Assembly (NCBI GenBank): GCA_030278955.1
Contig: JAOANR010000001.1
Coordinates: 23,753,635-23,817,634, forward strand
Reading direction: 5' to 3'
Source of the DNA: Hygrophila difformis
Lineage: Eukaryota; Streptophyta; Magnoliopsida; Lamiales; Acanthaceae
Length of the DNA: 64,000 nt
Below, piece by piece: positions 984 to 45,720 of the stretch. Both the position numbers and the translations under genes were made by a program. How positions within the stretch are numbered: position 1 is the first letter of the stretch; each line of letters starts with the position of its first letter. The notes beneath the pieces are model-generated. The model was not told the DNA's origin, did no database searches, and worked only from the letters and a program-made list of their open reading frames with translations.

Positions 984-1474
984 TGTTAACCAAGTAAATT
1001 TAATGGTCTAATTTAATGGCCTATTAAGTATATTTGGTGGCCCATTGCATACAATTAGTGGTCCAGAAGGTGGAAGCCCATTCCATGTACAAGCCCCGTT
1101 CTTCATGTGAAGGCCAGCCCAGGAGTCACGAAGAGATTAGGACAGGAGGTTTCTCTAGACGGGAAGTTTCTTGAAGACATCTGTAGGAATGCTAGCAGGA
1201 TGGTCGGCAAGATGACACCTGGCCTAGGAGGGATCGTGGGATTGCTTGACAGTTGAGGAACTCCGCATATAAAAACCAAAGGGTTGCTCACTTTTGACCC
1301 CCCGGACAATTCTACACAACAATTGCACTTTTATTTCTTTAAAGTTTCTGTAATTCCTTTGTTTTCTGCATTTTTAGTTTTCTTGCAAGGTTCCTTTCGA
1401 CAGTTCTTTGTAATTCACCCAATATTGTCAATCAAAGAAGAGACTTTCGTTCTATACAAATTTCACGCACAACA
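984..1474 (+). repeat. 5' LTR of the Tat element
   Basis: Begins TGTTAACC and ends CACAACA. It matches 14,646-15,136 base for base in my reading. A TATA-like TATAAAAA at 1268-1275 lies about 200 bp from the LTR end and is the likely core promoter of the genomic transcript. Confidence 0.93.
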
Positions 1475-1476
1475 AA

Positions 1477-1495
1477 TTGGCACGCCCAGTGGGAC
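1477..1495 (+). other. Primer-binding site of the Tat element
   Basis: Two bases after the LTR comes TTGGCACGCCCAGTGGGAC, the position and style of Tat-lineage primer-binding sites (TTGGCGCC...GGG type) rather than the initiator-Met TGGTATCAGAGC type. I cannot name the primer tRNA with confidence. Confidence 0.6.
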
Positions 1496-1530
1496 ACGAG
1501 ATTAAAGCCATATCCGCTTTAAAGAAGTGT

Positions 1531-4500
1531 ATGCGTCTAAGATCAGGACGTCTGGTAAGTGATCTTACACAGAAATTCGAAGAAATGTCTCTGCAAGAGA
1601 AGACACCTGTTCGAACGTCGTCTGGAGAGGTGACTGAGACGACGACTGTTGCACAACCACAACAGGGGATCATACAGACCCCTACATTTGCAGAACAAAT
1701 GCGGCTTTCGATGACAGAATCGATGGCCGAGTTCATGCCTCTACTAACGAGGCATCTTATGGATGTTTTGCGGCCTGCTATGGCCGATCAAATTGACAGG
1801 GGCATCAATGCCTTGCGGACTCAACAGGAAGCAACTACTCCCGCAACCGTTCCTGCAAACGGCGCTAACTTGCTGCCGTGTTCAGGGCCGTCAGGCGGTC
1901 AGTTAAGAACTTGGGGTACAGCACCCAACAACCAGCCGCCAATCCCCGATGTGGGAGGCTTAGTCAATCCACTGGTGAATCATTTCCAGACAACCTATGC
2001 TTCCAACCCAGCGGCACCCCTGATGCCGAACCCTGGATTTGTAGCGCCCCCAACACCCATTTATGCGGCGCCAGGTTGTTTGGTGGCTTCCAGTGTATCT
2101 CCAGGCTGTACAGCGGCCTCTGGTGGCATTGGTATGCAGCCACGCCAAGCGGCACCTCACGTGCCGAACGTTTCGGTGGGACCCTTCGTGACAACGCAGC
2201 CTTGGGGACAAGCGCCCCAACCCTGGGGACAGACGCCACTACAAGGGGGGCAGACACCGCAACCAGCCGCCGTGGCTCCTCTTTCACCCCCAGTGGCGTT
2301 ACCACCTGCGCAGACGCCAGCAGTATCGCCCGAGTTGCTTGCTGACATGATGCAGCAACACTTTGGCATCCAATTGAGGCCGATGGAGCGGCCTACGTAC
2401 CGTAAACCGTACCCTGATTGGGTAGATAGCATGCAACCCTACCCACGAGGATTTAAGATGCCCGAATTTTCCACGTTCTCAGGGGATGATGGCAGGTCCA
2501 CCGTGGAACACGTGGGGAGGTTCACTGCACAATGTGGGGAAGCAGCATCCAACGACTGGCTCAAATTGAGACTTTTTAGCTCATCCCTTACTGGTCCTGC
2601 TTTCGCATGGTATGCATCGTTGCGGTCTAATTCCATTCAGAATTGGGCTGACTTGGAGCGAGCTTTTCATGACAGGTTTTATACACCATTGTCACAGGTT
2701 AGCCTCGCAGACCTGACTAACGCAAAACAATATGCCGATGAAACGGCAAATGCTTTCATTAATAGGTTACAGCGGCTTAAAGGCCGATGTACAATGGCAA
2801 TTCCTGAAAGGGAAATAGCCAATATAGCAGTAACTAACATGTTGCCTAAATTGAAGGAACATTTGATTGTGCAGGATGCGATTGACCTTGCCCAGTTGGC
2901 CGAGAGAGCGGCCCGACTGGAAAAGTTCCTGGAGGAACAGGAAGAAAAACGTCCCACACGTAGAGTCCACTTTGAAGAGGTGAGGTTCGACGATGAGGAG
3001 GACGAACCTCTGGAGGTGGCTGTAGCGGAATTGGTCCAGGCAGCCAAGCCACACACTTGTACGGCCCTCAGGCCGCCCAAACAGAAGGAGGCCAAGTACA
3101 GGCCTGAGGAGGATCTCTTTGACATGAGCAGGGCGGACCAAGTGTTTGATGCCCTACTCAAGGACGGAGTTATTAAGCTGCCCGAAGGGCAGAAGTTGCC
3201 AGCGACCGAAGAAATTCGAGGCCGGTCATTCTGTAAGTGGCACAACTCCTATACTCATAGCATTACTAAGTGCAGGAGTTTTAGAAGTGCTATTCAGAAT
3301 AAGATTAAAGAGGGACGGCTAAAAATTGCAGGTATGAAGGTGGACATAGACCCCTTCCCTCAGCTTCACGTTGGTGCTTCTGGGTTCATCCCAAATCCAG
3401 AAGTTGGCGGCTCTAGTAGCCGGACTGATGAAGGAAGCGAATGTGTTCAGATCAGTGAGCAGGATGAGGACTTGTTGTCTGATGAATCCGAGACTGAAAA
3501 AGAAAAGGAATTATTTAGCAAGCAGCCTAAGTTTAAAAGTATGTCCAAAGAGGAGTTCAAGAAAGTCCTCGATGCTGAAGAGAAAGAGTATCAGAAGAAG
3601 CAGAAGCCTCCATTGAAGGTTGAGATCCCAAAACCGGCATTAGAGATCCGTGAAAATGGTAGACATCAGCCTATAACTCGGGACTACAGGCCGGGAGTAC
3701 ATGTAGTACCAACTTTGATGAGACGTCCTGAGCAACCCGCGGAGGCTGAAAGGTGGATGATGAATCGGGCAGAGAGGAGATCCGCTCCGAGGGAGCCGCC
3801 AGCCATGACCAAAGGCCAATTCAGGAGGGCTCAAAGAAGGTATGCCGAGGAAATGCGGCAATGGGAGGCTCAGCTTTATAAGTTGAAGTCATCTAGGCCT
3901 CGGAAGCCAATTCAACCAACCTATTTCAGGTCTCAAGGTGAGACTTCTGAACGGCAAAGGCCTGTTCATGAGAGGTTACAACACCCTCAGGGAAGACATA
4001 CTACTAGGAGGCCTAATTCCCCTGTACCACCTCGCAGACCAGTTCATGAGCGGCTTCAACCGAGCCGAGAAGGTGATAGGAGGGGGTCACATAAGACACC
4101 CAGGGAGGCACTCCAGTCGCCACTTTCTTCCACTAGAAGACCAATTCGGGAAAGGCTTCAGTGGGCAGAACGTGAACCATCATCATCTCAGCCTAGGGTG
4201 ACAGAGGTGGAATCTACTCAGATTAAAATTCAGTCGCCTTCATCCCAAGACAAGGGCAAAGCGACCGCCTTGGCTGAATCGAGTAATGAGAAAAGGGTGA
4301 CTATGTCCTGGGCAGATAAGTTCATGGAGAGATTTGAGCATATGGGCGAGCCGGGTACAGCCAGTACAAGGGAGATGGCCATGATGAAGGTGCTCACTAG
4401 ATACTTCGCATACATAGCGGCCCACCAGGCCGGTGAATTGGGAAGTGAACCGGATAGCTATGAGGGATTCCTGGCTTACTGTAAGACAGTAGATGGTCCT

Positions 4501-5571
4501 GAACAGGCGAAGTCACAGCCGGAGTTTCAGCCTGCCCATGAGGCTGCGCGGGTGAACTTTGGGGCGGTCACCCCTAAGGAAGTGGAAGCCGCTATGGACG
4601 CCAACATAGAGGAGCCTAAGGTTGGGATTAGCGCCTTGGGAATCATGCCTGACGACATTAACATGTTGGATGGTATGGATCTGGATGAAGAGGCTAACAT
4701 GGATGCTTTCTGGGAGGATCTGGAAAATAAGTTAAAGGAAGAAGGTTACGAGTACGGGCAAGAAAAAGAACCGACGGACCCAGCGGTGTCCATGCAAGTC
4801 GTGGGGTTGGCAGCAGACGAAGATGTCAGTGATGTGGAGTCCGAAGTGTGGGATGAAGAGGAGCCGCCATTTGCCAAATTGATTGAAGAAATGGATGAAA
4901 TGATAGCCGAGTTGTCTCACCCGGCTAGATGTTTGCTGGAGGAGTTAGGTGGTCAATCAGTTCAGAGGCCAGCCTCGGCTCACTTCGCCAAGCCCGAGGT
5001 GTCTCAAACGAGACAGTTGAAACCCTTGTATGTCAAGGCCCATATTGATGGACGTCCCTTCACCAGGGTGTTCGTCGACAATGGGGCAGCGGCAAATGTA
5101 CTCCCGATGTCAACTCTGAAGAAGTTGGGAAAGAGCGAGAAGGATTTGATCCCCACCAGGGTCAGGATGTGTAGCTTCGTGGGAGAAGCGACCCAACCTG
5201 CAGGGTTCATAACGGCGGACGTCACTGTGGGGTCTAAGACTATCAAAGTGGCTTTCTTTGTGGTAAAGTCAAAGACCTGTTATTCGGCATTGTTAGGGCG
5301 TGATTGGATCCATATGGCAGAATGTGTGCCTTCCACCCTACACCAACAGTTACTCATATGGGATGGTAATCACGTTGAATTGGTGGAGGCAGATCCTCAG
5401 CCCTTTATAGGGCCAAACAACAATAATGATGAGGCCGTTTTCTACTTAGAAGACATTCAGCCTGCTTCAGCTCTAATTGGCGTCGATGTGGACTTGGAGT
5501 CCATTGATTTTACTTCAAGCGGTTTCAAGCTTCACTCAGCGGATGGCCGGCAAGAGGTATCAAGTTTTTGA
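1531..5571 (+). CDS. gag-pro: Gag-protease polyprotein of the Tat element
   Basis: The frame is open from the primer-binding site, and the first ATG is at 1531 (reading MRLRSGRL), giving about 1346 residues. The structural Gag domain lies around residues 310-440 and includes FSGDDG, a WYASL-like segment and an RFYTPL stretch. After it come charged, proline- and arginine-rich linkers. The C-terminal 170 residues form a retropepsin-like aspartic protease with VFVDNGAAANVLP (catalytic Asp about residue 1183) and a later LLGRDWI. The active-site triad reads D-N-G instead of D-S/T-G. No CCHC knuckle is obvious. The gene ends TGA at 5569-5571, two bases before the pol ATG and in a different frame, so pol needs frameshifting, reinitiation or splicing. 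Confidence 0.92.
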   Translation: MRLRSGRLVSDLTQKFEEMSLQEKTPVRTSSGEVTETTTVAQPQQGIIQTPTFAEQMRLSMTESMAEFMPLLTRHLMDVLRPAMADQIDRGINALRTQQEATTPATVPANGANLLPCSGPSGGQLRTWGTAPNNQPPIPDVGGLVNPLVNHFQTTYASNPAAPLMPNPGFVAPPTPIYAAPGCLVASSVSPGCTAASGGIGMQPRQAAPHVPNVSVGPFVTTQPWGQAPQPWGQTPLQGGQTPQPAAVAPLSPPVALPPAQTPAVSPELLADMMQQHFGIQLRPMERPTYRKPYPDWVDSMQPYPRGFKMPEFSTFSGDDGRSTVEHVGRFTAQCGEAASNDWLKLRLFSSSLTGPAFAWYASLRSNSIQNWADLERAFHDRFYTPLSQVSLADLTNAKQYADETANAFINRLQRLKGRCTMAIPEREIANIAVTNMLPKLKEHLIVQDAIDLAQLAERAARLEKFLEEQEEKRPTRRVHFEEVRFDDEEDEPLEVAVAELVQAAKPHTCTALRPPKQKEAKYRPEEDLFDMSRADQVFDALLKDGVIKLPEGQKLPATEEIRGRSFCKWHNSYTHSITKCRSFRSAIQNKIKEGRLKIAGMKVDIDPFPQLHVGASGFIPNPEVGGSSSRTDEGSECVQISEQDEDLLSDESETEKEKELFSKQPKFKSMSKEEFKKVLDAEEKEYQKKQKPPLKVEIPKPALEIRENGRHQPITRDYRPGVHVVPTLMRRPEQPAEAERWMMNRAERRSAPREPPAMTKGQFRRAQRRYAEEMRQWEAQLYKLKSSRPRKPIQPTYFRSQGETSERQRPVHERLQHPQGRHTTRRPNSPVPPRRPVHERLQPSREGDRRGSHKTPREALQSPLSSTRRPIRERLQWAEREPSSSQPRVTEVESTQIKIQSPSSQDKGKATALAESSNEKRVTMSWADKFMERFEHMGEPGTASTREMAMMKVLTRYFAYIAAHQAGELGSEPDSYEGFLAYCKTVDGPEQAKSQPEFQPAHEAARVNFGAVTPKEVEAAMDANIEEPKVGISALGIMPDDINMLDGMDLDEEANMDAFWEDLENKLKEEGYEYGQEKEPTDPAVSMQVVGLAADEDVSDVESEVWDEEEPPFAKLIEEMDEMIAELSHPARCLLEELGGQSVQRPASAHFAKPEVSQTRQLKPLYVKAHIDGRPFTRVFVDNGAAANVLPMSTLKKLGKSEKDLIPTRVRMCSFVGEATQPAGFITADVTVGSKTIKVAFFVVKSKTCYSALLGRDWIHMAECVPSTLHQQLLIWDGNHVELVEADPQPFIGPNNNNDEAVFYLEDIQPASALIGVDVDLESIDFTSSGFKLHSADGRQEVSSF

Positions 5572-5573
5572 TC

Positions 5574-8500
5574 ATGAGCAGCCAAGACATCTACAAAGAC
5601 TTGTTGCGGCGGCTGGTAGATACTGAAGTGATGATGGGCGCCGAGGACAAGTCTCAAAATTTGGTAGACAGTAGGCCATCCGAGTGGCCCTCACCTGTGA
5701 AGCGGATACTACCTAGTCCAGAAGCTAAGGAACCACTTGTGGATATCAATCTCGGGACGGAGGCGGAGCCAAGGCTGACCAAAATAAGTGCGTCTCTGCC
5801 TGATAAAGAGCGGCACCAACTAGTGGAGCTGATTCAGAAGTATAAGGATTGTTTTGCGTGGCAATACTCGGATATGCCAGGACTTCCAAGGGAGCTCGTG
5901 GAACACCAGTTACCCACTCATCCCGAGTTCAGACCTCACAAGCAGCCGCCTAGACGGTTTGATCCAGACACCATCCCAAAAATAAAGACTGAGATCGAAA
6001 AACTTCTTAGAGCAGGTTACATTAGAACTTGTCGTTATGTAGAATGGCTTGCAAACATTGTACCTGTTGTAAAGAAGAATGGTCAATTAAGAGTCTGTAT
6101 AGACTTTAGGAATTTAAACTTGGCTACGCCCAAGGATGAATATGTAATGCCAATGGCTGACATGCTGGTTGATGCGGCTGCCGGCCACAAATTTTTATCA
6201 TTAATGGATGGTTATTCTGGATATAATCAAATCTTTATTTCTGAAAATGATGTTCACAAAACAGCTTTTCGTTGTCCAGGACCAGTTGGCATCTTTGAAT
6301 GGGTAGTGATGCCGTTTGGTTTGAAGAATGCTGGGGCAACATATCAAAGGGCTATGAACATGATCTTTCATGATTTAATTGGCCATATGCTTGAAGTGTA
6401 CATCGACGATATTGTGGTTAAATCGTGTGAATTTGGCCAACACTTGGATCACCTTGAGCAAGCCTTCATCAGGATGAGACAACATGGGCTTAAAATTAAT
6501 CCCGCTAAGTGTGCCTTCGGAGTGGCGGCTGGGAACTTTTTAGGTTTCCTGGTTCATGAGAGGGGCATCGAGGTGGATCAGAATAAAGCCAAGGCCATCC
6601 TGGAAGCTCGCGCACCGTCTAATCTTAAGGAACTACAGTCGTTAATGGGCAAGATTAACTTCTTAAGGAGATTCATTGCCAACGCGGCAGGGAAGATGAA
6701 AGCGTTCACCACCTTGCTCAAAGGAAGGAAGAACGACGTATTCAATTGGACGGCTGAACATCAAGCGGCCTTTGAAGAAATTAAAAGAATGTTAGCCAAT
6801 CCTCCAGTATTGATGCCACCCAGACTTGGCGAACCTCTGAAATTGTATGTGTCAGCCGCTGAGGAGTCTATTGGATGCTTGCTCGCACAAGATGATGAGT
6901 ATGGGAAGGAAAGGGCCATCTATTACCTCAGCAAGACACTGCAGGGTCCAGAAGCGAGATATACAGCTTTAGAGAAGTCGTGTTATGCGTTGGTGTACGC
7001 TTGCAACAAGTTGGAACATTACATGTTACCACGTACAGTCCATGTGGTGGCCCCATTCGATTTGGTTAAGACATTGCTCCAGAGACCAGCCTTGAAAGGC
7101 CGACATGCTAAATGGGCTATGAAAATTAGTCCTTTTACTCTCGTTCATGTTCCTCAGAAGGCGGTTAAGGGACAAGCCCTAGCGGACTTCTTAGCTCAGC
7201 ACCCTTCAGTGATGTTGCCCGAAGAACCCGAAGAATCATTTATAGGATTCGAACCTTGGGAGTTAACGTTCGATGGGTCTTGCGCAAGTAGCGGCTCAGG
7301 GGCCGGTATTACTATCACTAGTCCTTTCGGGGAGCATTGGAAGCTGGCTCGGGAGTTGGAGCCTGGTACGACTAATAATCAAGCTGAATATGAGGCTTTG
7401 ATTTTCGGCCTGGAGACAGCATTGATGAAGGGTGCAAGGTCCATTGTAGTTTTTGGAGATTCTCAAGTCATCTTAAAGCAATTGACAGGAGAGTATGAAT
7501 GCAAAAGTCCGAGGTTGATCAGATGTTATGAAACTGCGCTAGAACTGTTAGGTAAATTCTCGGAGGCTACTATCAAACATGTGCCTAGAGAACAAAATAA
7601 GGAGGCCAACGAAGCTGCTCAATTAGCTTCCGGCTGGTACGCTGATTGCCCTAGGGGGGCAACAGATATTGCTGTCCTCACCAATGGTTATGAAGATCAA
7701 GAAGAGATTCAACCTCAAAACCCAGTTGGTGATTGGAGGACAGATATTACGAAATACCTTGAGAACCCATCGTCTGGAGGAGATAGCTCTATGAAGGTAA
7801 AAGTTTTAAGATATACGTTGGTTGATGGTGAGTTGTTCCGAAGGGCGCTCGACGGTTTGTTACTTAAATGCATCGGTCCTGAGGAGGCTAAGTTAGTGAT
7901 GGGAGAAGTCCATGAAGGAATTTGTGGCTCCCATAGAGCGGGACCTAGCATGAGATGGAGTATTCACCGGTACGGGTATTTTTGGCCAACAATCATGGAG
8001 GATTGTATTACTTATGCTCGAGGTTGCGAGGCTTGCCAGAAGCATGGTCCCATTCAAAGAGTACCGGCGGAGGAATTGCATTCAGTCGTGAAGCCTTGGC
8101 CGTTCCGTGGCTGGGGTATGGACATCATTGGGAAGATTCATCCGCCTTCATCTAAGAACCACGCGTTCATACTCGTGGCCACTGATTATTTTACCAAGTG
8201 GGTAGAGGCATGGCCAATGAGAAAGATTGATCAAAGCGATGTTATTAAATTTGTGACTGAGCTAATACATCGATTTGGGATACCTCAGACTATTACTGCC
8301 GATCAAGGAACGGTATTCACAGGTGAGAAGTTCATGGCTTTCGCTAAGCAATTTGGGATTCGCATATATCATTCTACCCCATACTATCCCCAAGCGAATG
8401 GTCAAGCCGAGGCTACTAACAAGATCTTGGTAAGCATGATCAAGAAGGCAGTGGGAGACAAGCCAAGGAAGTGGCATGAGGCCTTATCAGAGGTCCTGTG

Positions 8501-8987
8501 GGCATATAGAAATTCTAAGTCTACTGCCACTGGATTCACACCATATTACCTGACGTATGGACATGACGCTGTCCTACCTTTAGAGATCACGGTTCCATCG
8601 CTGAGGGTGGCCCAGCAACATCACTTAGAGTTGGCCAAGTATGAAGAGGCCATGTTGCAAGAGTTGGAGACGGCAGATGGTGACAAGCTTGTCGCTTTGG
8701 AGAATATCCGACGTCATAAAGCTAAAATTGCAAAACATTATGACAAGAAGGTTCGAAGCAAAATGTTCAGTGAAGGGGACCTAGTGTGGAAGGTAATTTT
8801 GCCTTCAGGGGTACGCGATAATGAAACGGGGAAGTGGTCTCCAAACTGGGAAGGACCTTTCATTGTTACTCAGAGGTTGATAAATGGTGCATACAAATTG
8901 ATGGATATTGATGGACAAGAGCATAAACAAAGTATCAATGCAAAATATCTTAAAACGTATTATCCATCAGTTTGGGAATCGGAGTAA
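5574..8987 (+). CDS. pol: Pol polyprotein: RT, RNase H, archaeal-type RNase H, integrase
   Basis: About 1137 residues without a stop. Domains in order: reverse transcriptase with YIDDIV (Tyr about residue 276); the ordinary gypsy RNase H region (LYVSAAEESIGCLL to ALVYACNKLEHY); a second, archaeal-like RNase H starting LTFDGSC with candidate acidic residues near D567, E605 (NNQAEYEAL) and D629 (FGDSQ); then integrase with an HHCC zinc module (EVHEGICGSH...CEACQKHG), a D-D-E core (ATDYFTKW, ADQGTVF, NGQAEATNK) and a C-terminal GPF segment. No chromodomain is seen. The dual RNase H order places the element in the Tat lineage. The ATG at 5574 is the first in frame; an upstream TTG at 5568 is not a plausible eukaryotic start. 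Confidence 0.93.
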   Translation: MSSQDIYKDLLRRLVDTEVMMGAEDKSQNLVDSRPSEWPSPVKRILPSPEAKEPLVDINLGTEAEPRLTKISASLPDKERHQLVELIQKYKDCFAWQYSDMPGLPRELVEHQLPTHPEFRPHKQPPRRFDPDTIPKIKTEIEKLLRAGYIRTCRYVEWLANIVPVVKKNGQLRVCIDFRNLNLATPKDEYVMPMADMLVDAAAGHKFLSLMDGYSGYNQIFISENDVHKTAFRCPGPVGIFEWVVMPFGLKNAGATYQRAMNMIFHDLIGHMLEVYIDDIVVKSCEFGQHLDHLEQAFIRMRQHGLKINPAKCAFGVAAGNFLGFLVHERGIEVDQNKAKAILEARAPSNLKELQSLMGKINFLRRFIANAAGKMKAFTTLLKGRKNDVFNWTAEHQAAFEEIKRMLANPPVLMPPRLGEPLKLYVSAAEESIGCLLAQDDEYGKERAIYYLSKTLQGPEARYTALEKSCYALVYACNKLEHYMLPRTVHVVAPFDLVKTLLQRPALKGRHAKWAMKISPFTLVHVPQKAVKGQALADFLAQHPSVMLPEEPEESFIGFEPWELTFDGSCASSGSGAGITITSPFGEHWKLARELEPGTTNNQAEYEALIFGLETALMKGARSIVVFGDSQVILKQLTGEYECKSPRLIRCYETALELLGKFSEATIKHVPREQNKEANEAAQLASGWYADCPRGATDIAVLTNGYEDQEEIQPQNPVGDWRTDITKYLENPSSGGDSSMKVKVLRYTLVDGELFRRALDGLLLKCIGPEEAKLVMGEVHEGICGSHRAGPSMRWSIHRYGYFWPTIMEDCITYARGCEACQKHGPIQRVPAEELHSVVKPWPFRGWGMDIIGKIHPPSSKNHAFILVATDYFTKWVEAWPMRKIDQSDVIKFVTELIHRFGIPQTITADQGTVFTGEKFMAFAKQFGIRIYHSTPYYPQANGQAEATNKILVSMIKKAVGDKPRKWHEALSEVLWAYRNSKSTATGFTPYYLTYGHDAVLPLEITVPSLRVAQQHHLELAKYEEAMLQELETADGDKLVALENIRRHKAKIAKHYDKKVRSKMFSEGDLVWKVILPSGVRDNETGKWSPNWEGPFIVTQRLINGAYKLMDIDGQEHKQSINAKYLKTYYPSVWESE

Positions 8988-9154
8988 GGAAAATAGAAAT
9001 GCATCGAGTCAAAAGTGGCCGTATCAGGGCCAAATGTGGCAAGAAATATATAATAAAGACAATCGGAAGATGTCTACCAGTTTCCCACCACAAGCCGGTG
9101 AGCTAGCCCAAGAAAATGTACCAAAAGAAAAACGCTGTGCGACCCCTAAAGCTA

Positions 9155-12100
9155 CTAAGAAGAAGGTGGCATCCTACTACCAAGTATGCGGCCTCGCATG
9201 ACTGCCCAACGATCGCATGTACGCCTAAAGGTGTCGGTAATACGATGAAAAGCAGCGTCGGCAACACGAGCGCGAGCATCCGCCCGGGGTCGAAGACCCT
9301 TCGACAACTCAGCTGATAGGTCGCGCTGGTCGGCGACTAAGCGGTCGTAAGTGGTCTGCAAAACAGCGGCCTGTGTAGAAGTCTCGGTCCAGCTAGACTC
9401 GAGAGAAGTAAGCCCATCCTTGGCCTCCTGAATAGTACGCTCCCTATCTGCAATGGAGCGTCTCTCGTGAGCGATAGCACGTTCTGCCTCTGCAATAATC
9501 CTCTCTGACTCTCTGATATCGCCCTCTGCACGTGTGATGGCACTCTCCAGCTGTGATTTCTGTTTTTCTTGAGCCGCACGAGCCTGAGATAACTGCGCAT
9601 GCTGAGGACGAATCGCCTCCAACTGAGAAAGAGTCTCACGGTGTCGTAACTCAAGGTCATCAATAAGGGTCAACACCTCAGCAGACTCATCTGCAATACT
9701 CCTGTAACTGGGAAAAAAGAAAGACAGCTCGGAGATAAGATATGAAAAATCCTGGAAGTCGGCATCCTCAACAAAGGTGGAGGCCGAGCTGATAGCAATG
9801 AGCAAGTCGTCCAGACCGGAGACTATCTCGGCGGTCACGGGGCCAGTATGGGAGGTAAGAAAGCGGTCAAACGCCTCACACGCTCTAGCAATATCGCCAC
9901 TGAGAGGAGTATGGGTGCTCGAAATCATAGGATCTGCAGAGGGAACCTGGGGCACCTGCAAGTGAGGACATATTAAAATTAGCAATAGAGAGAGCTAACT
10001 ATAACGAGGACAAGAAAGAATAATACCTGAGGAGTCGGGGCGTGGTCGACTGAAGCAGCTGAATGTGCGGCAGAATCGATAACTGAAAGTGGCGTCTGAC
10101 TAGTAAGGGCCTATGGTTGAAACAAGCGAACATTCCTTAGCATATGTTCCTCCGCAAAGATGAAGGCAGACAGGGGAATGAAAATATTATGAGGCTAGTA
10201 ATACCTGAGAGGCCAGCGTGGGAGTCGGCTTAACTGCAGAGGTATGAGACGCAGCCTGAGCGGAAGGCGGACAATCTCCCTGATCCAAAGAGACCTGGAA
10301 GAATGAGGCGTGAGGATTCGTTATGTCTCGAGAAATAAGTCGAAATTAAGAGCAAAATAATCAATAAATACCTGAGAGGCCCGATCGATGTTAGTGGAGA
10401 TATCATCAGTAGAGGGGAGAGATGGATCCACGTGGGCCTGAAAGTAAAAAGAATGTCGCAATAAGTTATCAAGACAGAGACAAACTACTACTAAAGAATA
10501 CAAGGTAGCCAAACATACCTGTGAGAGATCCTCAACCGCGGTCTCCTGGGCATCAGTGTGGTATCTGGGATCATCCACCCCATGAGCACATATGTAGTCA
10601 GCACGAGCCGGTAGCTCGTCATCATGAGCTGCGCCAACCCCCTCACATGAGTGATCATCATCGGGGTCAACTGGGTCGGTATCAGGGCGAGCATCATCTC
10701 CAGCGCCGTCCTCGCTCATCTGATCCTCGTCCTCATCTGAACTCGCGGATTCACCCTCGTCGTCATCACGATCTTCGGTGCCGTCAGTAACATCTTCATC
10801 AGTTTCTCCATCATGGGCTAAAGAGCTCGAACTACTACCGGCAGACGCCCCGCGAGATCCAGGGGATGAATCTGTATAAGTTAACAGGGGTTAGGCGACA
10901 ACAGAGGGAGATGGAAGAGAACATATGAGACGTATGATGAACTTACCTCGTTGGCGTTTGCGAGATAGATGAGACGCATATGATTTCTTCTTGGCAACGT
11001 CATGAGTCGCAGGCACGGGAGCTGACCATATAGCAACACCACGAGTACTAGGGGCCGGATCAGGCGGCGGGCAAGCCGGAGGCCTAGACGAAGACTGTCC
11101 TGTGGTGTTAGGGACTGGATGTGAAGATGCAAGTCCGAAACGCGCTACGAGGCTGTCCTCAGTCGGCAAGAGCTTGGCGATGTACGGTGTCCACCAAGCC
11201 ATAAACTGAGTAGCAAGCGTCCCTGAAGGAGTGAATGGCAAATATGATGAATCTGGCAGGCGACTCAGCAACGTGAGTATAGCGTGGAGATCTGAATCAG
11301 TCAACCCCGAGCCTCTCCTAGCTGGCCACGCTACTCCACGTGGAAGACCAAGTCGACATCCGAACTGGCGAGCTAGTAAGTGAGGACAATAAGACTCAGC
11401 ATTGAGCGGGTTGGACTTGTCGTTTTGCCGAAGACCACTCAATAGTAGGTGTGGCTTCAAAGCAGCGTTCCATGTGTCCTCGCCAAAGTTGGCGTCTGGC
11501 TCGAGTGGCGAACATATCAGAGCAGCCAACAGTGTACCCCGCTGGGCGTAGGGGAACAAACCAAGGGGACCCGGCTTGTAAGCTAGAAGCCAGCGCATGA
11601 TCTGCAGTCCATCCTTGTCTAAGAGTTTACCTTCGCGAATTCGCAAAGATTGATTGGCTAGAGGAAAACACAAGGGTGTGTTCGGCCTGCAATCTTGCGG
11701 GGAAGGACGAGCCACATCACGAAACAGACGTGGGAAGTACAGCTGAATCCAGAGCTGCATAAACCATAAAGGGCCTGAAGCCTTGATCCCAGGATCTGTA
11801 CCCTTGGCAAGCAAAGTGGCTACCTTTGACAGGCCACTGAACAAAGTGGCGAGAAGATATGAGCCAATCGCCCAAGTATCGTCCCCGTCGCTATCCACGA
11901 TGGCTTGAACATAGGGTAACGCCATACGTAATACTGTCCGGGCACTAGAACAGACAATGAACCGACTGAACCACATCAAAAGGAATGCAACATGCTCTCT
12001 GCGTGTCGGAGGTCCGTTCACCCTATTATGGTCGATGAAAGCTGCGTATCGCTTGGATGCCTTGCCTACGGGGCAGATCAGGTCGCCAAGATGAGAATCC

Positions 12101-14447
12101 TCTGATCCAACGGACTGTGTCAACTCCAGACCAACAACAGACAGTCTCGTAATCATCATAACGTCTAAAAGGGTAGGACCTACGAATCCACAAGGAAGCT
12201 GGAACGCGTTCACTGAGGAATTCCAGAAGCCCATAAAATAGTATAACAGGTGATGGTCGAGAGCAATAGGCTTGATGGATAAGAGGATGGCATCCTTGAT
12301 TCCCCATTTTTCCCAGTCTCTATGAAAGGATCTCTGCATCCGATGAGCCCAGTCAATATATCGCTCCGTGCAATTACTTTCGGTCTGAGTCGTCTTTGAG
12401 GTTTTCTTTTTACGCTTGGACACTGACTTAGATGCAGCCGACTGGTGAGACTTAATGATCTTAGTACGGGTAATGAAAGCCCTAGTAAACACCGCCTGAG
12501 TAATGGGAAGCGAGCAAGATAGGAAGTCATGGACAGTGGCGGTTCCATGTACACCAGTATGATGAAAGGGTCGGAGGACAGGCACCGGTTCCTCCCTAGT
12601 AAAGTCATAAGCTTCATCATCAGATGAAGGGAGGTCCTCCATGTCCTATATCATTGAAGAGAGGGATAAGAAATTATATGAGGAAAACCAAGTTAGATAG
12701 GTGATAAGGAAGAGTCATACACTAACCTGGGGAGACGGAACACGAGGATGACCGGGACCAGAGAAGCCAGGCGTACTAACTAAGGTGTGACCTAGCTGGA
12801 AGGCTGTTGACGCCTGAGCGGCTGCTTTGAGCTTAAGTATAGTGTCCGGTAATTCTTTTGTGGCACCTGGTACACTGGAACTCACCAAAGCCTACATAGT
12901 AAATCATGATTAAACCCTCATCGATTGGGAACCACGTTAAGGAAAAGAAGATTGAATGCCAACGTATCTAAGGCAAACCTGAAAGGCTGGTGTGCGAGAC
13001 GACAAGGCTGCGAAACTCGAACCTGCAGGTGGCAGGGTGGCGGCCTGCATCACTGATGTAGCGACTGATCCTCCTTGTGTGGAGACTGATGTGGTGGCAG
13101 TTGAGTCTCGAAATAAAGTTCGAGGTTCCTTCCCTACACCGTGGCCGGAAAGTGGTGTAGTGATAACCCGGTTTGGCAATGAGGTGACCTATAGTACAAT
13201 CTCGTTAAGTCCTGAGGAGTACGGGTGTTGCTCGAAAGAGCTTCATTGATAAAACGAAAAGAGTGACATTACATATCGAGATGTACCTGAGCAGTGGTCG
13301 AACGCGGAGCAACAGTCCCAAAGGGCTGCGAAGTGGCTGCCAAAGGTCTCTCAATGGCGGCCAAGATCTTGGAAATGGCGGCCTGGGTAGGGAGTTTTGT
13401 CAAGATTTATGTCACGGAGCATATTGATAGGATATGTGGATTTAGATTGATCTGATAACCAAATAAAGTGGTATGTAGCAAAACAAACCTGAGTAGTAGA
13501 TGAGCGTGGAGCAACGCTTGAAGATCCTCCAGCGGCCGAGGTGTCTTCCGTGGCGGCCGCGGGTTTTGAAGCCACAAGTGGTGTAGGTGATTTTGTTGAG
13601 TCCTAAGTAATCAAACAACACGATAAGCATGCGTCCAGGGAGATTATAAGCATGATTTGTTAAGACAGGAGGTATATCTTGGGCGGCCCTATGACCCTAA
13701 GTTAGCCTATCAACGTGAGCTATTAAAGTGAGCCTCAACGTGAGTTATCAAAGTGAGCCTTTTGAGGTGAGCCTATCAAAGTGAGCCTTTTGAGGTGAGC
13801 CTATCAACGTGAGCTATTAAAGTGAGCCTCAACGTGAGTTATCAAAGTGAGCCTTTTGAGGTGAGCCTATCAACGTGAGCTACTAAAGTGAGCCTCAACG
13901 TGAGTTATCAAAGTGAGCCTTTTGAGGTGAGCCTATCGACGTGAGCTATTAAAGTGAGCCTCAATGTGAGTCATCAAAGTGAGCCTTTTTGAGGTCAGCT
14001 ATTAAAGTGAGCCTATTAAAGTGAGCCTCGACGTGAGTTATTAAAGTGAGCCTAACAGTGTGGTGGTCAAGATTTTCTTGGCGTATGTTATTTTTTCTAA
14101 GTTCTAATTTAACAATATCAAGCGACCTACTCTTATAGATTGCAAACCGTACATTGGCGGAAAATATATCTTATAAAAAAGATTGAATTTTATCTCATAA
14201 AATTTTGAGTCATCCGACAACATGTACTAAATATGCGATCAAAGGAAAATATAGATTGCACATAACATGGCCAGCAAAAGTAGACAACATGAAAACAAGA
14301 GATGAGACCAACCTGGGTGGTCGCGACATCGGCGGACAGCGTGCCTGGGAGGGCGGTTGAGGCGGCCAGGGTTTCGTGAGTGGTGGCCTGAAGGCTTTGC
14401 GCGGCAGATGGTTCGGAGCAAGGAGAGGTTCGCGGTGAGGAGCTCAT
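9155..14447 (-). CDS. Antisense spliced gene in the Tat element: plant mobile domain protein with coiled coil
   Basis: Eleven exons can be joined: 14447-14313, 13602-13489, 13382-13287, 13188-12979, 12891-12727, 12645-10947, 10871-10519, 10437-10372, 10279-10205, 10110-10027 and 9955-9155. Every intron is GT-AG, exon phases agree, and the total is 3798 nt (1265 residues plus TAG). Exons 1-5 encode Ala/Ser/Thr/Pro-rich segments. Exon 6 holds a plant mobile domain (about residues 300-700; HLLYYFMGFW, GFVGPTLLDVMMITRL, REHVAFLLMWFSRFI). Exon 7 is acidic (SSDEDEDQMSEDG). The last exon is a long coiled coil (residues about 1050-1240). The domain is known from MAIN/MAIL1-type nuclear proteins and from transposons. 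Its role here is unknown; silencing evasion or control of sense expression is speculation. The ATG at 14,447 and the splicing are predictions. Confidence 0.8.
13703..14055. repeat. GTGAG-rich tandem array in intron 1 of the antisense gene
   Basis: About five copies of a unit of roughly 65 bp built from shorter blocks: GTGAGCCTATCAACGTGAGC, TATTAAAGTGAGCC, TCAACGTGAG and TTATCAAAGTGAGCC. GTGAGC/GTGAGT recurs more than twenty times. Units differ by small substitutions and by one inserted half-unit. The array lies wholly inside the predicted first intron of the antisense gene. Confidence 0.85.
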
Positions 14448-14634
14448 GACGACGGTCAGAGAGGCGGTCAGCAACGGTGGCCAACACGAAGTGGCGGCCG
14501 AAAGTGGGATTAGAAAAAAAAAAAAAAAAAAATTTTTTGCAATTGTGACTTTGTCTTTTTATAATGGCTTAATGGGCCAGGCCTAGGTTAAAATGCGCAA
14601 ATTCGTCTGAAAAACCCCAACAGACAAATCGCGC

Positions 14635-14641
14635 AAGGGGG
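14635..14641 (+). other. Polypurine tract of the Tat element
   Basis: AAGGGGG ends four bases before the 3' LTR (CATC intervenes), which is the expected place for plus-strand priming. The tract is short. Confidence 0.55.
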
Positions 14642-14645
14642 CATC

Positions 14646-15136
14646 TGTTAACCAAGTAAATTTAATGGTCTAATTTAATGGCCTATTAAGTATATTTGGT
14701 GGCCCATTGCATACAATTAGTGGTCCAGAAGGTGGAAGCCCATTCCATGTACAAGCCCCGTTCTTCATGTGAAGGCCAGCCCAGGAGTCACGAAGAGATT
14801 AGGACAGGAGGTTTCTCTAGACGGGAAGTTTCTTGAAGACATCTGTAGGAATGCTAGCAGGATGGTCGGCAAGATGACACCTGGCCTAGGAGGGATCGTG
14901 GGATTGCTTGACAGTTGAGGAACTCCGCATATAAAAACCAAAGGGTTGCTCACTTTTGACCCCCCGGACAATTCTACACAACAATTGCACTTTTATTTCT
15001 TTAAAGTTTCTGTAATTCCTTTGTTTTCTGCATTTTTAGTTTTCTTGCAAGGTTCCTTTCGACAGTTCTTTGTAATTCACCCAATATTGTCAATCAAAGA
15101 AGAGACTTTCGTTCTATACAAATTTCACGCACAACA
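14646..15136 (+). repeat. 3' LTR of the Tat element
   Basis: A 491-bp TG...CA repeat, identical by eye to 984-1474, with the copied TATA-like box at 14,930-14,937. It is followed at once by the ATTAT target duplication. Confidence 0.93.
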
Positions 15137-15179
15137 ATTATATTATAAATATACATTATATATAAAATATATAATTATG

Positions 15180-15210
15180 CCCGTCGAATTTCGACGGGTT
15201 AATTACTAGT
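15180..15210 (+). mobile_element. Helitron 3' terminus
   Basis: An 8-bp stem (CCCGTCGA at 15,180-15,187 and TCGACGGG at 15,191-15,198) with a 3-nt loop is followed by TTAATTA, CTAG (15,206-15,209) and T. A short GC-rich hairpin a few bases before a terminal CTAG, inserted next to T, is the diagnostic 3' end of plant Helitrons. The 5' TC end is not identified; the Tat element lies about 40 bp upstream and probably split the Helitron, putting the rest left of 979. Confidence 0.7.
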
Positions 15211-15829
15211 TCCCTTATCAAAATTGCAAACTTAAAGTCTGAGAATTGTCAGGCATGAGGTCGTTCGAAGGTCGTTACTAATTTTACAAATATACACACA
15301 GACGCACACAAGTTTCACCAGGATATAAACGGAGAAGGGGAAGAGAGAGATAAGGAGCGGGATTTTGGCGGCGTGCCCACTTTTCTGCTGCCGTTCTGTG
15401 GCATTCTTGTCGAAAAGGGGAAAATGAGCTAGGGTTTTCAACTGATCTGGTGAATTGGTGAGCTGACTGAGTGATATTATGTTGATTTTTTTGTATTGAT
15501 GATTTATAGGGAAGAAAATGCTGGCCAATTGACCATAATAAGGCGAGTAATTTGTCTGTCATCACACGGTATGATCATGTGTGTGATGAATAGTTTGGAG
15601 TTTTCCATGTTTTAGGATTTAGTACTATCGTGTTAAGTTGGTGTGATTTGTTAATACGATGTACTCCTACTAATATTTTGCCCAGTTAAACACCCATTCA
15701 TTTCGTCGGTTTAATTTTCTGCACAAAGCAATAAAGCGCAGTTTCAAAAGTTGTACGAGATTATTACTAAAAACTTTTGGTTTGATGTACAAATCTCCAG
15801 TATCTAGGGCTGTGGCCTGTGTGGCGGCG

Positions 15830-18634
15830 ATGGCAGGCAAGAGGAAGAGGAAAAGCACTGCTGAACGCCTAGGAATCCATCCGCGGAACAAATATTGCGA
15901 TAACCCTCCGGATTTTGGGTTATTGGCCTCTTTGTACCCCAGTTTCGAGCCTTACGTTTTCTACTCACGCGAGGGCTGGCCAAAAATCGATTGGACAGAC
16001 TTTAATGCTACTCGCGAGTTGACACGGGTCTTGCTGCACCATGATCATTCTCTCAACTGGTATAATGTTTGTTTAAATTGGTTTCCTGATTGAATTCTAC
16101 TTGTGCTAGTGTTTCCAAGTACAACAATTTAACTGTTTTGAAATTGGAGTTGATCCTTTAGAACGACCATTGGATCCATCACGTCTGTTGTGGAGATGGC
16201 CCAAGTTTCTTGCTTTCTGTTTTGTATGACATTTATTCTTGGTAAACCTATTATTTTAGAATATGGCTAATTTTTGGATATAATCATAGTATGGTGTGAT
16301 TTGTTTATTTACTCAATTTTTTACACAGTTGATTGTTTTTGTGTGGATTCTTAGTGAAAGGTTAATTAAGTAAGGTTTATTAATGCTGTCATTATGTAGT
16401 TTCGATTCAGTGAAAATTTTACGTTTGTAGGTGGATTCCTGATGGGCAGCTCTGCCCTACAGTGCCTAACAGATCAAATTACATACATTGGATTGAGGAT
16501 CTTTTGGTTTCAAAGATCATTCCTGCCACCCGGGATGATGGTGATATCAAAGGTTTTGATATTGGTACTGGAGCAAATTGTATTTATCCCCTTCTTGGTG
16601 CTTCCCTTCTTGGTTGGAAGTTTGTTGGTTCAGGTAGTTTGTTCAATACCTTTTACCTGGTCTGTCATGGTATTTCGTTTGTATGCTAAGGTTTAAGAAT
16701 GCTATTTCCTGTGCTTTTGGAAGATATTACTGATGTAGCTATAGAGTGGGCAAATCAAAATATCAACAGCAATCCACACATCTCCAATTTGATTGAAATC
16801 AGAAAGGTTTGTGCTGTCAACAAAATTGATGATCTCAAGGATTTGCAAAATGTTTCCATACATAGCAGCGGAGCCAATGTTGATGCTAGCACCAATACTG
16901 AAGACAATGGATTCCTTCAATCATCTGTACTTACAACTCCTTCTAGGCTGAAGAAATGTTATAATGGCTTGCCTATACTTCTAGATGTTGTCAAGGATGG
17001 AGAAGTATTTGATTTTTGTATGTGCAATCCCCCATTCTTCGAGTCAATGGAGGAAGCTGGTTTAAACCCCAAGACATCCTGTGGCGGGACTCCAGAAGAG
17101 ATGGTTTGCTCTGGCGGTGAACTTGCCTTTATCACTCGCATCATTGAGGACAGCACTAAGCTGAAGCATGCATTTCGGTACAATGTTCATTAAGTGTCCA
17201 AAACTTGAAAGTTGAAATTTCATTTAAGATGTCATTAAATTGGATTGATCTCAAACTTTTTCTCAATCATTAAGGTGGTACACTTCTATGGTTGGAAGAA
17301 AAGTCAACCTGAATATTCTGGTATCCCAACTCTGGAATGTTGGAGCCACTGTCGTGAAGACAACGGAATTTGTCCAGGGAAGGACTTCAAGATGGGGACT
17401 TGCTTGGTCATTTTTGGCTCCTTTGAGGAAGATGATAGCACCCCTAAAGATTGAGGAGAACAATCTGTCTTTCATGCTAGAGGTCAGGGCCTATATTTAT
17501 GTTGCTCTACTATTTTGTTTGTCTCTTTATTTTATTTTATTTTGATTACTTTTATCATCTGTGATTCTTGTGGAGATATCATCTTATGGTGCAGTTTTGC
17601 TGTTTCATTAGGGCCTTCAGCGGCAGCATGCAGCTTTCCATGTGTTGCAGTTTGTGGAATCCTACCTTTCTAATGGTGGTGCCTCTTGTAAACTAGATGC
17701 AGCTGCTTTCCATGTTGATGTATGCTCAATAATTCTTCTCTTTAACCAAAATTATGGGTGTGTTTTGCACGCAGCTTTTGAGAGGTTTTGGTAGCTTTAG
17801 ATTCTATACCAAAATAGAAGTCTTGTTATTTACACTAGCTTTTAAAGACCGTAGCTGCGAAAAAGAACTCAGCAAAAAGAAGCTACCCGTAGTAGCTTTC
17901 GGGACTTTCGAAAGCTACTTTCCAATTTAATTAATTTTTTCAATTGTTTATTTTAAAACTACGGCTTCTAAAAAAACACTTTATAGCTACAGCTTGTTGT
18001 GCAAAACAAACCCTATATATTCATTGTCAGCTTTGATAATATCGTATTAAATCCTGACCGATGACTGAGTTGTAGTATAATGCTGAAGGTCATTATTTCA
18101 AAGGATCAAATTAGTGCAATTTTGGATGGTCCGTCACTTGAGGAAAGCAGGACTACTAATTCCCATCCCGAGCTGAACACCTCCAATGCAATAAGTGATG
18201 AGCACAGAAAACCAGATGATGCCCTGCGATTTCGCATTTTGGTATCATAGTTATGGCTTCATATTTTGTTTTGCCCTCTCTTATTTGCGCCTGAATTGTT
18301 GTTTATTTTCCTTGTACAGGTTTTTCAGCAAATTCCAGGGAGTTTTTTGGTGAGAGGAACATTGCTTGATAGAGCAAGCACCATCTCAGGTATCATTTTT
18401 TCTTCCTTTTTGAAAAAAAAAAGAATTCTTATTTTTCTGTCCTAGTGCCAAATATGAAAGCTCCATGGTGAATTGAATAAACCATTGTACCGGGCTCCAA
18501 TTCTCCATATTGTTTTAGATCATTTGTCTACTCACACTCACTCTAGAAGCAATCTTATACTGGGATTTAATCCTTAAGTGTGCTGTATCTTTTGCTGTTG
18601 TTTCTCACTGCTAACACAATAATATTTGTTAATG

Positions 18635-39527: not shown

Positions 39528-39540
39528 TCCTCCCCCTCTT
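39528..39540 (-). other. Polypurine tract of the chromovirus
   Basis: On the minus strand AAGAGGGGGAGGA abuts the 3' LTR directly. Confidence 0.85.
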
Positions 39541-39550
39541 AAGATTACAG

Positions 39551-44264: not shown

Positions 44265-44894
44265 GCTGTTGCAAGAACAAGAGAGTTTAAATCCTTTTTG
44301 TTGAAGTATTATGTAATGCTTATGAAATAATTTGACTAAATAAATGACGATATTAACAGGTATCAATCTGTTGGAACCTGTTAGTATAGGTTGTTGGAGT
44401 TTAGCGTATTGTTTGTTGTTATTTGGGGTTGGTTCTACTCACTGCTTTGTTTTTGTTTTGTTTTGTTTTTTGTTTTTTTTTTTCGTGAACAGTAACCTGT
44501 TCAGGTTTTTTTTTTTGAGACCCTAGGGTTCAGGGTTTAGGGTTGGAGATACCCTTGTTCGATAATTATCTCCATATAATGTATATGTATATATATTTAC
44601 TACTTGTATTTTTGTTTAGTTGTTATCTATAGGTCATTGATTATTATTACCTTGTTCATTTGTTTGATCGGGTTTTAGCAGGGTATTCGAAGAGAAATAA
44701 TTTAATTAAAATGTAAGGAATACTTTAAATATACTTGTATAAAATAAATGCTTGTAGATTTATTACTCAAGAGAAAATTTTTCAGTTGATTAGAAGCGTT
44801 CGTAACAGGAATGAAATAGTAGTGCTGGTACTAGTTTGAAAAAAAAAGAGCATAGATAGTAGTGCATCAGTATGGGCTCCTAAGTCTAGGGTGA
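44265..44894. other. Chromovirus leader between gag and the extra ORF
   Basis: AT-rich, with T and TTTTG runs (44,450-44,515). No gene seen. It would be transcribed as part of the 5' leader. Confidence 0.4.
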
Positions 44895-45272
44895 CTAGGC
44901 AGGTACATCCTCGACGGGATCGTCCTCGTCGCTGGATACGTCAATGGCAATGGGTGTCCCCACCAGGCTCGGGCTCGGAGGAAATATGTCAGCCTCTAGG
45001 CCTAGCAGCTCAGCTCCTAAGTGTCCTATTTGCATCATCCGTTCGTTGTCCTTGTTTTGGAGTGTGACCACTTGGGTTTGGAGTTCGGCGACTTGGGCCT
45101 TGAGTTGGGTTATTTCATGATGGTCAGCTTCCCTAAGATGTCTCAAATAGTCCACGTTATTCTCTAGATGCCCTACTCGAGCCTTGAAGTGATTGATATG
45201 CTGTTGGGATTCGAGGTATGCGTTGGTCAGTTTCATCATCAGATTAGTCATATTCGCGTTGGGTTCGGCCAT
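44895..45272 (-). CDS. Extra coiled-coil ORF upstream of gag in the chromovirus
   Basis: A 125-residue frame in the sense direction of the element, between the primer site and gag. It begins MAEPNANMTNLMMKLTNAYL. Residues about 20-90 form a heptad-rich coiled coil (HFKARVGHLENNVDYLRHL, ITQLKAQVAELQTQVVTLQ), followed by an acidic tail (DVSSDEDDPVEDVPA). It has no stop although gag-pol nearby has several. It matches no retroviral domain I know. It could be a structural accessory protein, a captured host fragment or a chance frame; the regular heptads argue against chance. Confidence 0.55.
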   Translation of the reverse strand: MAEPNANMTNLMMKLTNAYLESQQHINHFKARVGHLENNVDYLRHLREADHHEITQLKAQVAELQTQVVTLQNKDNERMMQIGHLGAELLGLEADIFPPSPSLVGTPIAIDVSSDEDDPVEDVPA

Positions 45273-45705: not shown

Positions 45706-45717
45706 GCTCTGATACCA
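45706..45717 (-). other. Primer-binding site of the chromovirus
   Basis: On the minus strand TGGTATCAGAGC lies three bases after the 5' LTR, complementary to the 3' end of plant initiator Met-tRNA. Confidence 0.92.
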
Positions 45718-45720
45718 ACT

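Follow-up and report, generated by a model that had tools for sequence, protein, structure and literature searches.

What is encoded in the long region between pol and the 3' long terminal repeat (LTR) of a plant retrotransposon? The question is raised by an LTR retrotransposon of the Tat group of Ty3/gypsy in Hygrophila difformis, which lies in a 64,000-nucleotide stretch of contig JAOANR010000001.1 (assembly GCA_030278955.1, positions 23,753,635 to 23,817,634, forward strand). This whole stretch is termed the window, and the coordinates below refer to it. In this element, a gap of 5,658 bp separates the stop codon of pol (8987) from the 3' LTR (14646). We propose, with a probability of roughly 85%, that this region is one intron-rich protein-coding gene of the retrotransposon, running antisense to gag and pol. 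Comparison with relatives in the same genome shows a chain of predicted exons with conserved splice sites and phases, under purifying selection and co-inherited with pol.

Structure of the antisense gene

The gene model runs on the minus strand from 14447 to 9155 and comprises 11 exons and ten GT-AG introns without an internal stop. The coding sequence of 3,813 bp corresponds to 1,270 codons plus the stop codon. Nine introns are in phase 0 and intron 6 is in phase 1; introns 2–10 measure 71–106 bp, and intron 1 measures 710 bp. A preliminary description of this DNA had claimed ten GT-AG introns with agreeing phases, no stop and a direction opposite to gag-pol, all of which we reproduced exactly; of its joined frame of about 1265 codons, the openness stands and the exact length is 1,270 codons. 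The features of the gene are as follows (the gene finder and the copies are described further below).

14556–14563, minus strand: candidate antisense promoter TATAAAAA (TATA at 14563), with the next ATG downstream at 14447; kept in the close copy L040
14313–14447, minus strand: exon 1, 135 bp, start codon at 14447; the least secure exon
13603–14312, minus strand: intron 1, 710 bp, containing a tandem array
13699–14053, no strand: tandem repeat array, unit of about 66 bp repeated five times, entirely within intron 1
13489–13602, minus strand: exon 2, 114 bp; length differs among copies
13287–13382, minus strand: exon 3, 96 bp; a 96-bp exon is predicted by the gene finder in five of nine divergent (78–86%) copies
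12979–13188, minus strand: exon 4, 210 bp; 213–225 bp in six of nine divergent (78–86%) copies
12727–12891, minus strand: exon 5, 165 bp; read directly, gene finder agrees
10947–12645, minus strand: exon 6, 1,699 bp, plant mobile domain (PMD) by PF10536 match
10519–10871, minus strand: exon 7, 353 bp, acidic stretch
10372–10437, minus strand: exon 8, mini-exon of 66 bp; gene finder agrees
10205–10294, minus strand: exon 9, mini-exon of 90 bp; gene finder agrees
10027–10110, minus strand: exon 10, mini-exon of 84 bp; gene finder agrees
9155–9955, minus strand: exon 11, 801 bp including the stop, long predicted coiled coil (single-sequence AlphaFold2)

For exon 4, the gene finder favours a shorter form starting at 13044 in the window and in three close copies, and a start at 13188 is favoured by six of the nine relatives at 78–86%. 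We set 13044 aside for 13188 after considering the relatives, the acceptor AG of the latter being kept in 11 of 12. Given that the AG at 13044 is also kept in nine of 12 relatives, alternative splicing at the start of exon 4 is possible. Exons 1–2 and the promoter are the least secure parts of the model; exon 1 is fully reached by only L035 among the three close copies, L040 being deleted there.

Gene-like signals in the window

Composition analysis revealed a G+C content of 0.537 in the exons overall versus 0.382 in the introns (51–66% and 33–43% individually), a contrast that no circular shift of the model reached in 5,193 trials. Scored with generic plant splice matrices, all ten donors rank within the top 1.2% of GT sites in the window. 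Eight acceptors rank within the top 0.0–6.6%, with those of introns 9 and 2 at 11.3% and 20.4%.

A homology-free gene finder, which combined codon preferences learned from the sense gag-pol only with these generic splice matrices, recovered nine of the 11 exons exactly, missing exon 3 and beginning exon 4 at 13044. At a looser acceptor threshold it yielded 11 exons whose sole difference from the model is the start of exon 4 (intron penalties −3 to −7), because the acceptor of intron 2 had been barred under the stricter threshold; at the weakest penalty of −1, exon 6 was split and 12 exons resulted. The antisense strand scored 197.7, compared with maxima of 16.1 and 32.3 for shuffled sequences (100 full and 100 block shuffles) and 11–20 for the sense strand of the same region. 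Among 36 other stretches of the window the top score was 118.9, and the highest ones overlap other transposon open reading frames (ORFs). Furthermore, when codon preferences were learned from exons 6 and 11, the assigned frame ranked best of six in all nine smaller exons, and the gag-pol codon model ranked it best of the three same-strand frames in all nine.

The adjacent small exons 2/3, 8/9 and 9/10 are more alike than their shuffles (0/300 each; 28 pairs tested). Exon duplication as a strong claim was dropped, because the shared splice consensus contributes to the likeness of small exons.

Conservation in a divergent group of relatives

Relatives were sought in the assembly of H. difformis itself (915 Mb, 246 contigs), and 32 were fetched in all. 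A PMD search of the genome, with 117 of 3,306 candidates scored, gave at least 146 matches. The most divergent group, of 33 loci, shares one pattern (profile positions 1–346, about 112–116 bits), and the best 20 of these 33 by PMD score were analyzed. In all 20, the PMD (47–56% amino-acid identity) and the coil (44–46%) share a strand, and the C-terminus of pol, 87–90% identical to that of the window, lies on the opposite strand directly past the coil exon. Of the 20 loci, the gene finder predicted an unbroken PMD exon in 12 and an unbroken coil exon in 17; its exons upstream of the exon-4 equivalent vary from copy to copy and were not relied on.

Comparison of the window with one of these loci, L010, revealed that the seven introns 4–10 match in both position and phase (0, 0, 1, 0, 0, 0, 0), with lengths of 87/86, 81/78, 75/74, 81/79, 77/75, 94/70 and 71/69 bp in the window and L010, respectively. 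The proteins of the two groups share about 53% identity in the PMD exon and about 48% in the coil exon. Across the 20 loci, twelve splice dinucleotides were examined, and 237 of the 240 cells retain them. The diversity of first, second and third codon positions amounts to 0.029, 0.027 and 0.056, and that of introns to 0.075. Indels come in multiples of three in 22 of 27 cases in exons versus three of 35 in introns (Fisher p 5e-9; runs were counted per copy against L010, and shared events enter more than once).

The ratio of non-synonymous to synonymous change (dN/dS), computed as that of the corresponding diversities (piN/piS) over 18 copies with the most divergent L021 and L028 left out, is 0.34 (0.26–0.44) for all exons; with all 20 copies it is 0.31. 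For PMD plus coil it is 0.27 (0.20–0.37) in frame and 0.92 (0.69–1.30) and 1.71 (1.14–2.86) in the shifted frames, and the C-terminus of pol, as a control in the same 18 copies, gave 0.15. The preliminary description had held that stops or frameshifts in all related copies would tell against the gene, and had proposed dN/dS across copies as a check. In fact, 15 of the 20 copies keep the joined frame open over the exons between the exon-5 equivalent and the coil exon, both included, and dN/dS is 0.27 in the PMD and 0.27 in the coil, below the shifted frames.

Conservation in the family of the window element

A DNA search with exon 6, in which 40 of 493 candidates were scored, listed the window copy, at least 18 matches at 98–99%, one at 86% and at least 20 at 78–82%. 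From the 39 other listed copies 12 were fetched, namely three close copies (L034, L035 and L040) and nine at 78–86%. In the latter nine, agreement with the window is about equal for third codon positions and introns, and higher for first and second positions. All nine gave a dN/dS of 0.19–0.25 for exon 6, with 1.04–1.72 in shifted frames, and 0.29–0.45 for exon 11. The three close copies, with few changes, gave 0.25–0.48 for exon 6, and 0.50–0.64 and 1.27–1.77 in the shifted frames.

In the nine copies, 112 of 126 cells retain the splice dinucleotides of introns 2, 3, 5, 6, 7, 9 and 10, and other GT or AG dinucleotides are kept at about 25% in introns and 55–57% in exons. Introns 1, 4 and 8 stand outside this count; intron 1 is poorly aligned or cut by the fetch, the acceptor column of intron 4 is non-AG in seven of the nine, where the length of exon 5 differs, and all nine are devoid of intron 8. 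L039, the one copy of the nine free of stops and frameshifts in exons 6 and 11, misses the intron 3 dinucleotides at the aligned columns, and the window protein finds no coil match in L033. Among the close copies, a single stop interrupts L035, in a part other than exons 6 and 11, and exon 6 of L034 is frameshifted.

A search with the LTR gave at least 41 matches, among which 14 listed LTR pairs, including that of the window, span 13.5–14.6 kb. Exon 6 lies antisense in all 14, and introns are present in recent insertions, in keeping with the earlier claim that antisense introns survive retrotransposition.

Other listed LTR pairs span 7.8, 11.9 and 45 kb without a listed PMD exon, and 29 and 34 kb with one. 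The 7.8-kb (C10:57287160-57294961) and 11.9-kb (C9:43352317-43364201) pairs are possible derivatives that lost the antisense gene. The copy at C7:40796039-40810642 has LTRs 88–89% identical to those of the window and an exon 6 at 99%, possibly owing to recombination between families.

Observations against a single intact gene

Several observations weigh against this interpretation. In the window, introns 2 and 9 have weak acceptors, and the gag-pol codon model puts the assigned frame best of six in only four of the nine small exons. The stretch that holds exons 1–2 and the TATA box is variable among copies, and a lone TATA hexamer is weak evidence for the candidate promoter. The AlphaFold2 model of the PMD exon is unusable, with a predicted local distance difference test (pLDDT) of 38.8.

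In the divergent group, selecting loci by PMD score favours copies with an intact PMD, but gives no such advantage to intact coils or introns. In eight of the 20 (L015, L018, L019, L021–L024 and L028), the gene finder breaks the PMD exon up, and five (L015, L019, L021, L024 and L028) have a broken joined frame. In L018, L022 and L023, three of the eight with a split PMD exon, the joined frame is nevertheless open, and the gene finder is therefore imperfect. The dN/dS intervals of small exons include 1, being 0.67 (0.32–1.61) for the mini-exons and 0.82 (0.31–2.34) for the exon-5 equivalent.

In the window's own family, stops or frameshifts occur in exon 6 or 11 in eight of the nine copies at 78–86%, and only L040 of the three close copies has exons 2–11 open, with its deletion in exon 1. 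The +1 shifted frame of these three also stays below 1 (the 0.50–0.64 given above). The number of mini-exons varies as well: there are three in the window and L010 and one fewer in the nine copies at 78–86%, all of which have no intron 8. Judging by this difference between groups, the linker apparently gains and loses entire exons.

The predicted protein

Profile search revealed a match to PF10536 of 90.3 bits, compared with a curated cut-off of 34.9, which covers profile positions 1–346 of 347 and lies within exon 6; this is the comparison that the preliminary description had suggested. In the numbering of the predicted protein, exon 6 starts at residue 241 and exon 11 at residue 1005. The predicted protein has an Ala/Ser/Thr/Pro-rich start and two basic runs, KRKKK at residue 317 and KKKSYASHLSRKRQR at residue 792, which could be nuclear signals. 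Single-sequence AlphaFold2 models the exon 11 product as one helix over residues 82–218 of 266, with a mean pLDDT of 76.8 and a predicted template modelling score of 0.37; ten-residue means of pLDDT are 71–98, and 92–98 over residues 101–180. The acidic tract and the long C-terminal coiled coil that had been claimed are thus recognized in exon 7 and in the helix predicted for exon 11.

In a large protein database, no homologue was found at E 0.001 for the spliced protein among 7,992 candidates scored, or for exon 6 among 7,996. We take this as fast divergence combined with the word filter, rather than absence. The PMD and pol had no relative among viral contigs, and solved structures gave no match below E 0.3.

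The host retrotransposon

The element that carries the gene consists of the following parts.

984–15136, plus strand: whole LTR retrotransposon of the Tat group of Ty3/gypsy, 14,153 bp, with identical LTRs, a 5-bp target-site duplication and gag-pol domains
979–983 (left) and 15137–15141 (right), no strand: target-site duplication ATTAT, read from the sequence
984–1474, plus strand: 5' LTR, 491 bp, TG...CA, 100% identical to the 3' LTR
14646–15136, plus strand: 3' LTR, 491 bp
1478–1495, plus strand: primer-binding-site-like sequence adjoining the 5' LTR, read from the sequence
14635–14641, plus strand: polypurine-tract-like run AAGGGGG adjoining the 3' LTR, read from the sequence
1477–5571, plus strand: gag-protease ORF, 1,364 amino acids by mechanical start, with Retrotrans_gag and gag-asp_proteas matches
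5568–8987, plus strand: pol ORF with domain matches to reverse transcriptase (RT), RNase H, additional RNase H (RVT_3) and integrase

In a profile search, RT occupies pol residues 169–327, RT_RNaseH 394–523, RVT_3 568–686, H2C2 771–827 and rve 845–941. The additional RNase H hence sits between RNase H and integrase, a feature of angiosperm Tat elements (Ogre/Retand) according to PMC6317226. The LTRs differ at none of 491 sites, corresponding to a divergence of at most 0.6% (rule of three) and an insertion age below 0.24 million years by the rate quoted in PMC6123737, which is that of rice and not of the host plant. The domain order, the identical LTRs and the target-site duplication bear out the earlier view of a young Tat element.

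Of two features of the Ogre lineage, the PMD-encoding extra ORF is present, and the intron region of about 274 bp that parts the gag-protease from the RT-integrase ORF was not found, the pol-frame ATG at 5574 lying two bases past the gag-protease stop (5569–5571). TRP28 (PF04195), which marks Retand, gave no match when the spliced protein and four further ORFs were searched at E 1; a search of the H. difformis genome gave no match to it either, but control genomes were likewise silent. Like the antisense ORFs termed aORF-3R, the gene lies antisense between pol and the 3' LTR. The pol protein has 2,835 relatives in the large protein database, the best with 55–56% identity over the full length.

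At the gag-pol junction (5563–5576, TGATCATG), the gag-protease frame ends in AGT TTT TGA. The pol frame is also accessible through a −1 shift at five consecutive T residues, and frameshifting or reinitiation could apply.

Age and tempo of the gene

The window group was compared with five of the 20 divergent loci (four for the coil exon). The proportion of synonymous differences is 0.74–0.76 in the PMD exon, 0.72–0.80 in pol and 0.57–0.62 in the coil exon. Given that the synonymous sites of both the PMD and pol are near saturation, the gene and pol look about equally old, and the gene has been passed on together with pol. The proportion of non-synonymous differences is 0.32 in the PMD and 0.31–0.32 in the coil versus 0.05–0.07 in the C-terminus of pol, a roughly six-fold faster change in the gene. 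An arms race fits this tempo, and so does weaker constraint. The gene is not free to drift, as its dN/dS values below 1 show.

Putative mechanism and function

The present gene model enables us to propose how the gene may be expressed and maintained. Transcription by RNA polymerase II of the plant would start at a promoter close to the 3' LTR, probably just inside this LTR (TATA at 14563, first ATG at 14447), comparable to that of maize Grande gene23. The spliceosome would then remove the ten introns, yielding a protein of about 1,270 residues composed of the Ala/Ser/Thr/Pro-rich start, the PMD, the basic stretches, the acidic stretch and the coiled coil. This protein may enter the nucleus via its basic stretches, and the coiled coil could mediate oligomerization. 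Introns that run opposite to the genomic RNA strand cannot be spliced from the genomic RNA, and retrotransposition copies them. They persist because reverse transcription uses sense-strand RNA as its template, in which these sequences are not introns; the spliced antisense mRNA would be without the ends required for reverse transcription. Comparison of the copies shows that the predicted gene has stayed spliceable over many retrotransposition cycles.

As to function, our leading guess, which we hold tentatively and at clearly less than even odds, is a nuclear protein that acts in trans to counter or divert chromatin silencing by the host, as a domain relative of MAIN and MAIL1. It leads because these host PMD proteins act in silencing (PMC5418596, PMC7156037). 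An accessory role in replication or integration, such as nuclear import of the pre-integration complex or choice of the insertion site, ranks close behind, although by itself it is rather unlikely. It would suit the basic runs and acidic stretch of the predicted protein and the nuclear location reported for maize Grande gene23 (PMC7264820), whereas the characterized PMD relatives act in silencing and gene expression (PMC5418596, PMC7156037). The roughly six-fold divergence over the C-terminus of pol at non-synonymous sites would suit a protein with changing host partners, though relaxed constraint fits too.

Alternative explanations of the locus

Instead of one spliced gene, the region might hold two or more antisense genes with unspliced transcripts of their own, exon 6 encoding a PMD protein and exon 11 a coiled-coil protein, in the way that surveys of single ORFs would list them. 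Indeed, an ATG-to-stop scan of the antisense interval between pol and the LTR yields two ORFs of at least 150 codons, with 583 and 257 amino acids. However, a series of short exons and five introns connects exons 6 and 11, with splice sites conserved from group to group (intron 8 missing in one), and the similarity of the 20 divergent loci begins at residue 245 in 19 and at residues 1003–1007 in all 20, near the starts of exons 6 and 11. We thus consider separate proteins very unlikely.

A single spliced gene also has to be weighed against an antisense transcript that acts as RNA, either double-stranded RNA or phased small RNAs tuning the element, with a protein of little importance. Antisense regulation has been proposed (PMC7264820), and PMD genes of tea are reported as sources of phased small interfering RNAs (PMC10673657). 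Such a role predicts neutral amino-acid change, whereas codon-level purifying selection and frame-preserving indels point to a protein; we regard it as still less probable than separate proteins, although RNA and protein roles could coexist.

Recent capture of a host PMD gene with its introns, for which the other intact PMD loci of the genome (L001–L003, the three strongest, putative host genes) could speak, is rejected as the least credible explanation, because the window protein is only 23–24% identical to these loci in its PMD, relatives across groups carry the gene beside pol and inherit it with pol, with the synonymous sites of PMD and pol saturated, and all 14 listed LTR pairs of 13.5–14.6 kb carry it.

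Relation to known systems

The PMD extra ORFs of Tat elements were reportedly first described by Steinbauerova et al. in 2011. As stated in the preliminary description, they are known (PMC6317226, PMC5418596); 57% of elements of the Ogre lineage carry one (PMC6317226), and the clades PMD-A1/A2 are confined to gypsy elements (PMC5418596). They share with the window gene the domain and the broad element group. They are described as ORFs (getorf, at least 250 codons), with no intron mentioned in the excerpted text of PMC6317226, whereas the window gene has 11 exons that include an acidic stretch and a coiled coil. PMC5418596 ran Fgenesh around PMDs borne by transposable elements, and multi-exon models may therefore exist in its supplement.

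The aORF-3R of Retand, Grande gene23 and RIRE2 resembles the window gene in being antisense, between pol and the 3' LTR, with tandem arrays nearby (PMC11963269, PMC7264820). Antisense ORFs with an Smc domain are reported in some Retand elements (PMC11963269, PMC7264820), and Grande gene23 of maize is reported to have its own promoter (PMC7264820). However, 97% of those Retand clusters encode TRP28, to which the spliced protein of the window has no match, and such genes were read as uninterrupted ORFs, mostly of at least 600 bp (ORF Finder with this minimum in PMC11963269), whereas the window gene is spliced. PMC7264820 itself calls for looking for spliced antisense transcripts. In Arabidopsis, MAIN, MAIL1, MAIL2 and MAIL3 contain the same Pfam domain but are host genes. 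HBZ of human T-cell leukaemia virus type 1, named in PMC11963269, is likewise an antisense accessory gene of a retroelement, but belongs to an animal retrovirus and resembles the window gene in layout alone. Ogre and EVADE also have genes with introns, but these lie in the sense RNA (PMC12786077, PMC6317226), whereas all ten of the window are antisense; a 2025 review calls plant LTR retrotransposons generally intronless, Ogre and EVADE excepted (PMC12786077).

PMD extra ORFs in Tat elements have thus been published before, as have antisense ORFs next to the 3' LTR and the notion of a counter-silencing role (PMC8616336). Among the excerpts of open-licence literature searched, we found no description of an intron-rich Tat antisense gene with conserved splice sites and purifying selection. 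A bolder generalization, which we think may well fail, is that the antisense extra ORFs of Tat elements are exons of one ancient, host-spliced, intron-rich gene that predates the split of the families, whose large exons ORF surveys saw separately and whose protein would be a nuclear factor contesting PMD-based silencing of the host.

Other features of the window and genome

In the interval 15137–17545, ORFs matching Methyltransf_10, presumably of a METTL16/FIO1-like gene, lie about 650 bp downstream of the element and in the same orientation. MULE transposase pieces (DBD_Tnp_Mut, MULE) occupy 32833–35228. An interrupted Ty3/gypsy element lies on the minus strand at 38500–48100, with a gag-protease at 42090–44366 and an integrase with a sub-threshold chromodomain match at 39551–41128; nearly identical ORFs at 38652–39089 and 47599–48036 are probably within its LTRs. 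Transposon pieces with Transposase_21 and DUF4216 at 56101–59249 are, we assume, of the CACTA type. Elsewhere in the genome, another PMD group has a steady set of in-frame stops that reads like an intron inside the domain, and other PMD loci form inverted pairs, such as C8:61904700 (minus strand) and C8:61906252 (plus strand).

Implications

In summary, the predicted gene represents a ten-intron gene of a retrotransposon, most of whose introns were kept antisense through divergence that saturates synonymous sites, and it shows a way for a retroelement to own and keep a spliced gene. The intronic position of the tandem array offers a reason for the tolerance of the array. Published catalogues of antisense ORFs may list exons instead of genes. 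With a defined gene model, the putative contest between element-borne and host PMD proteins becomes testable.

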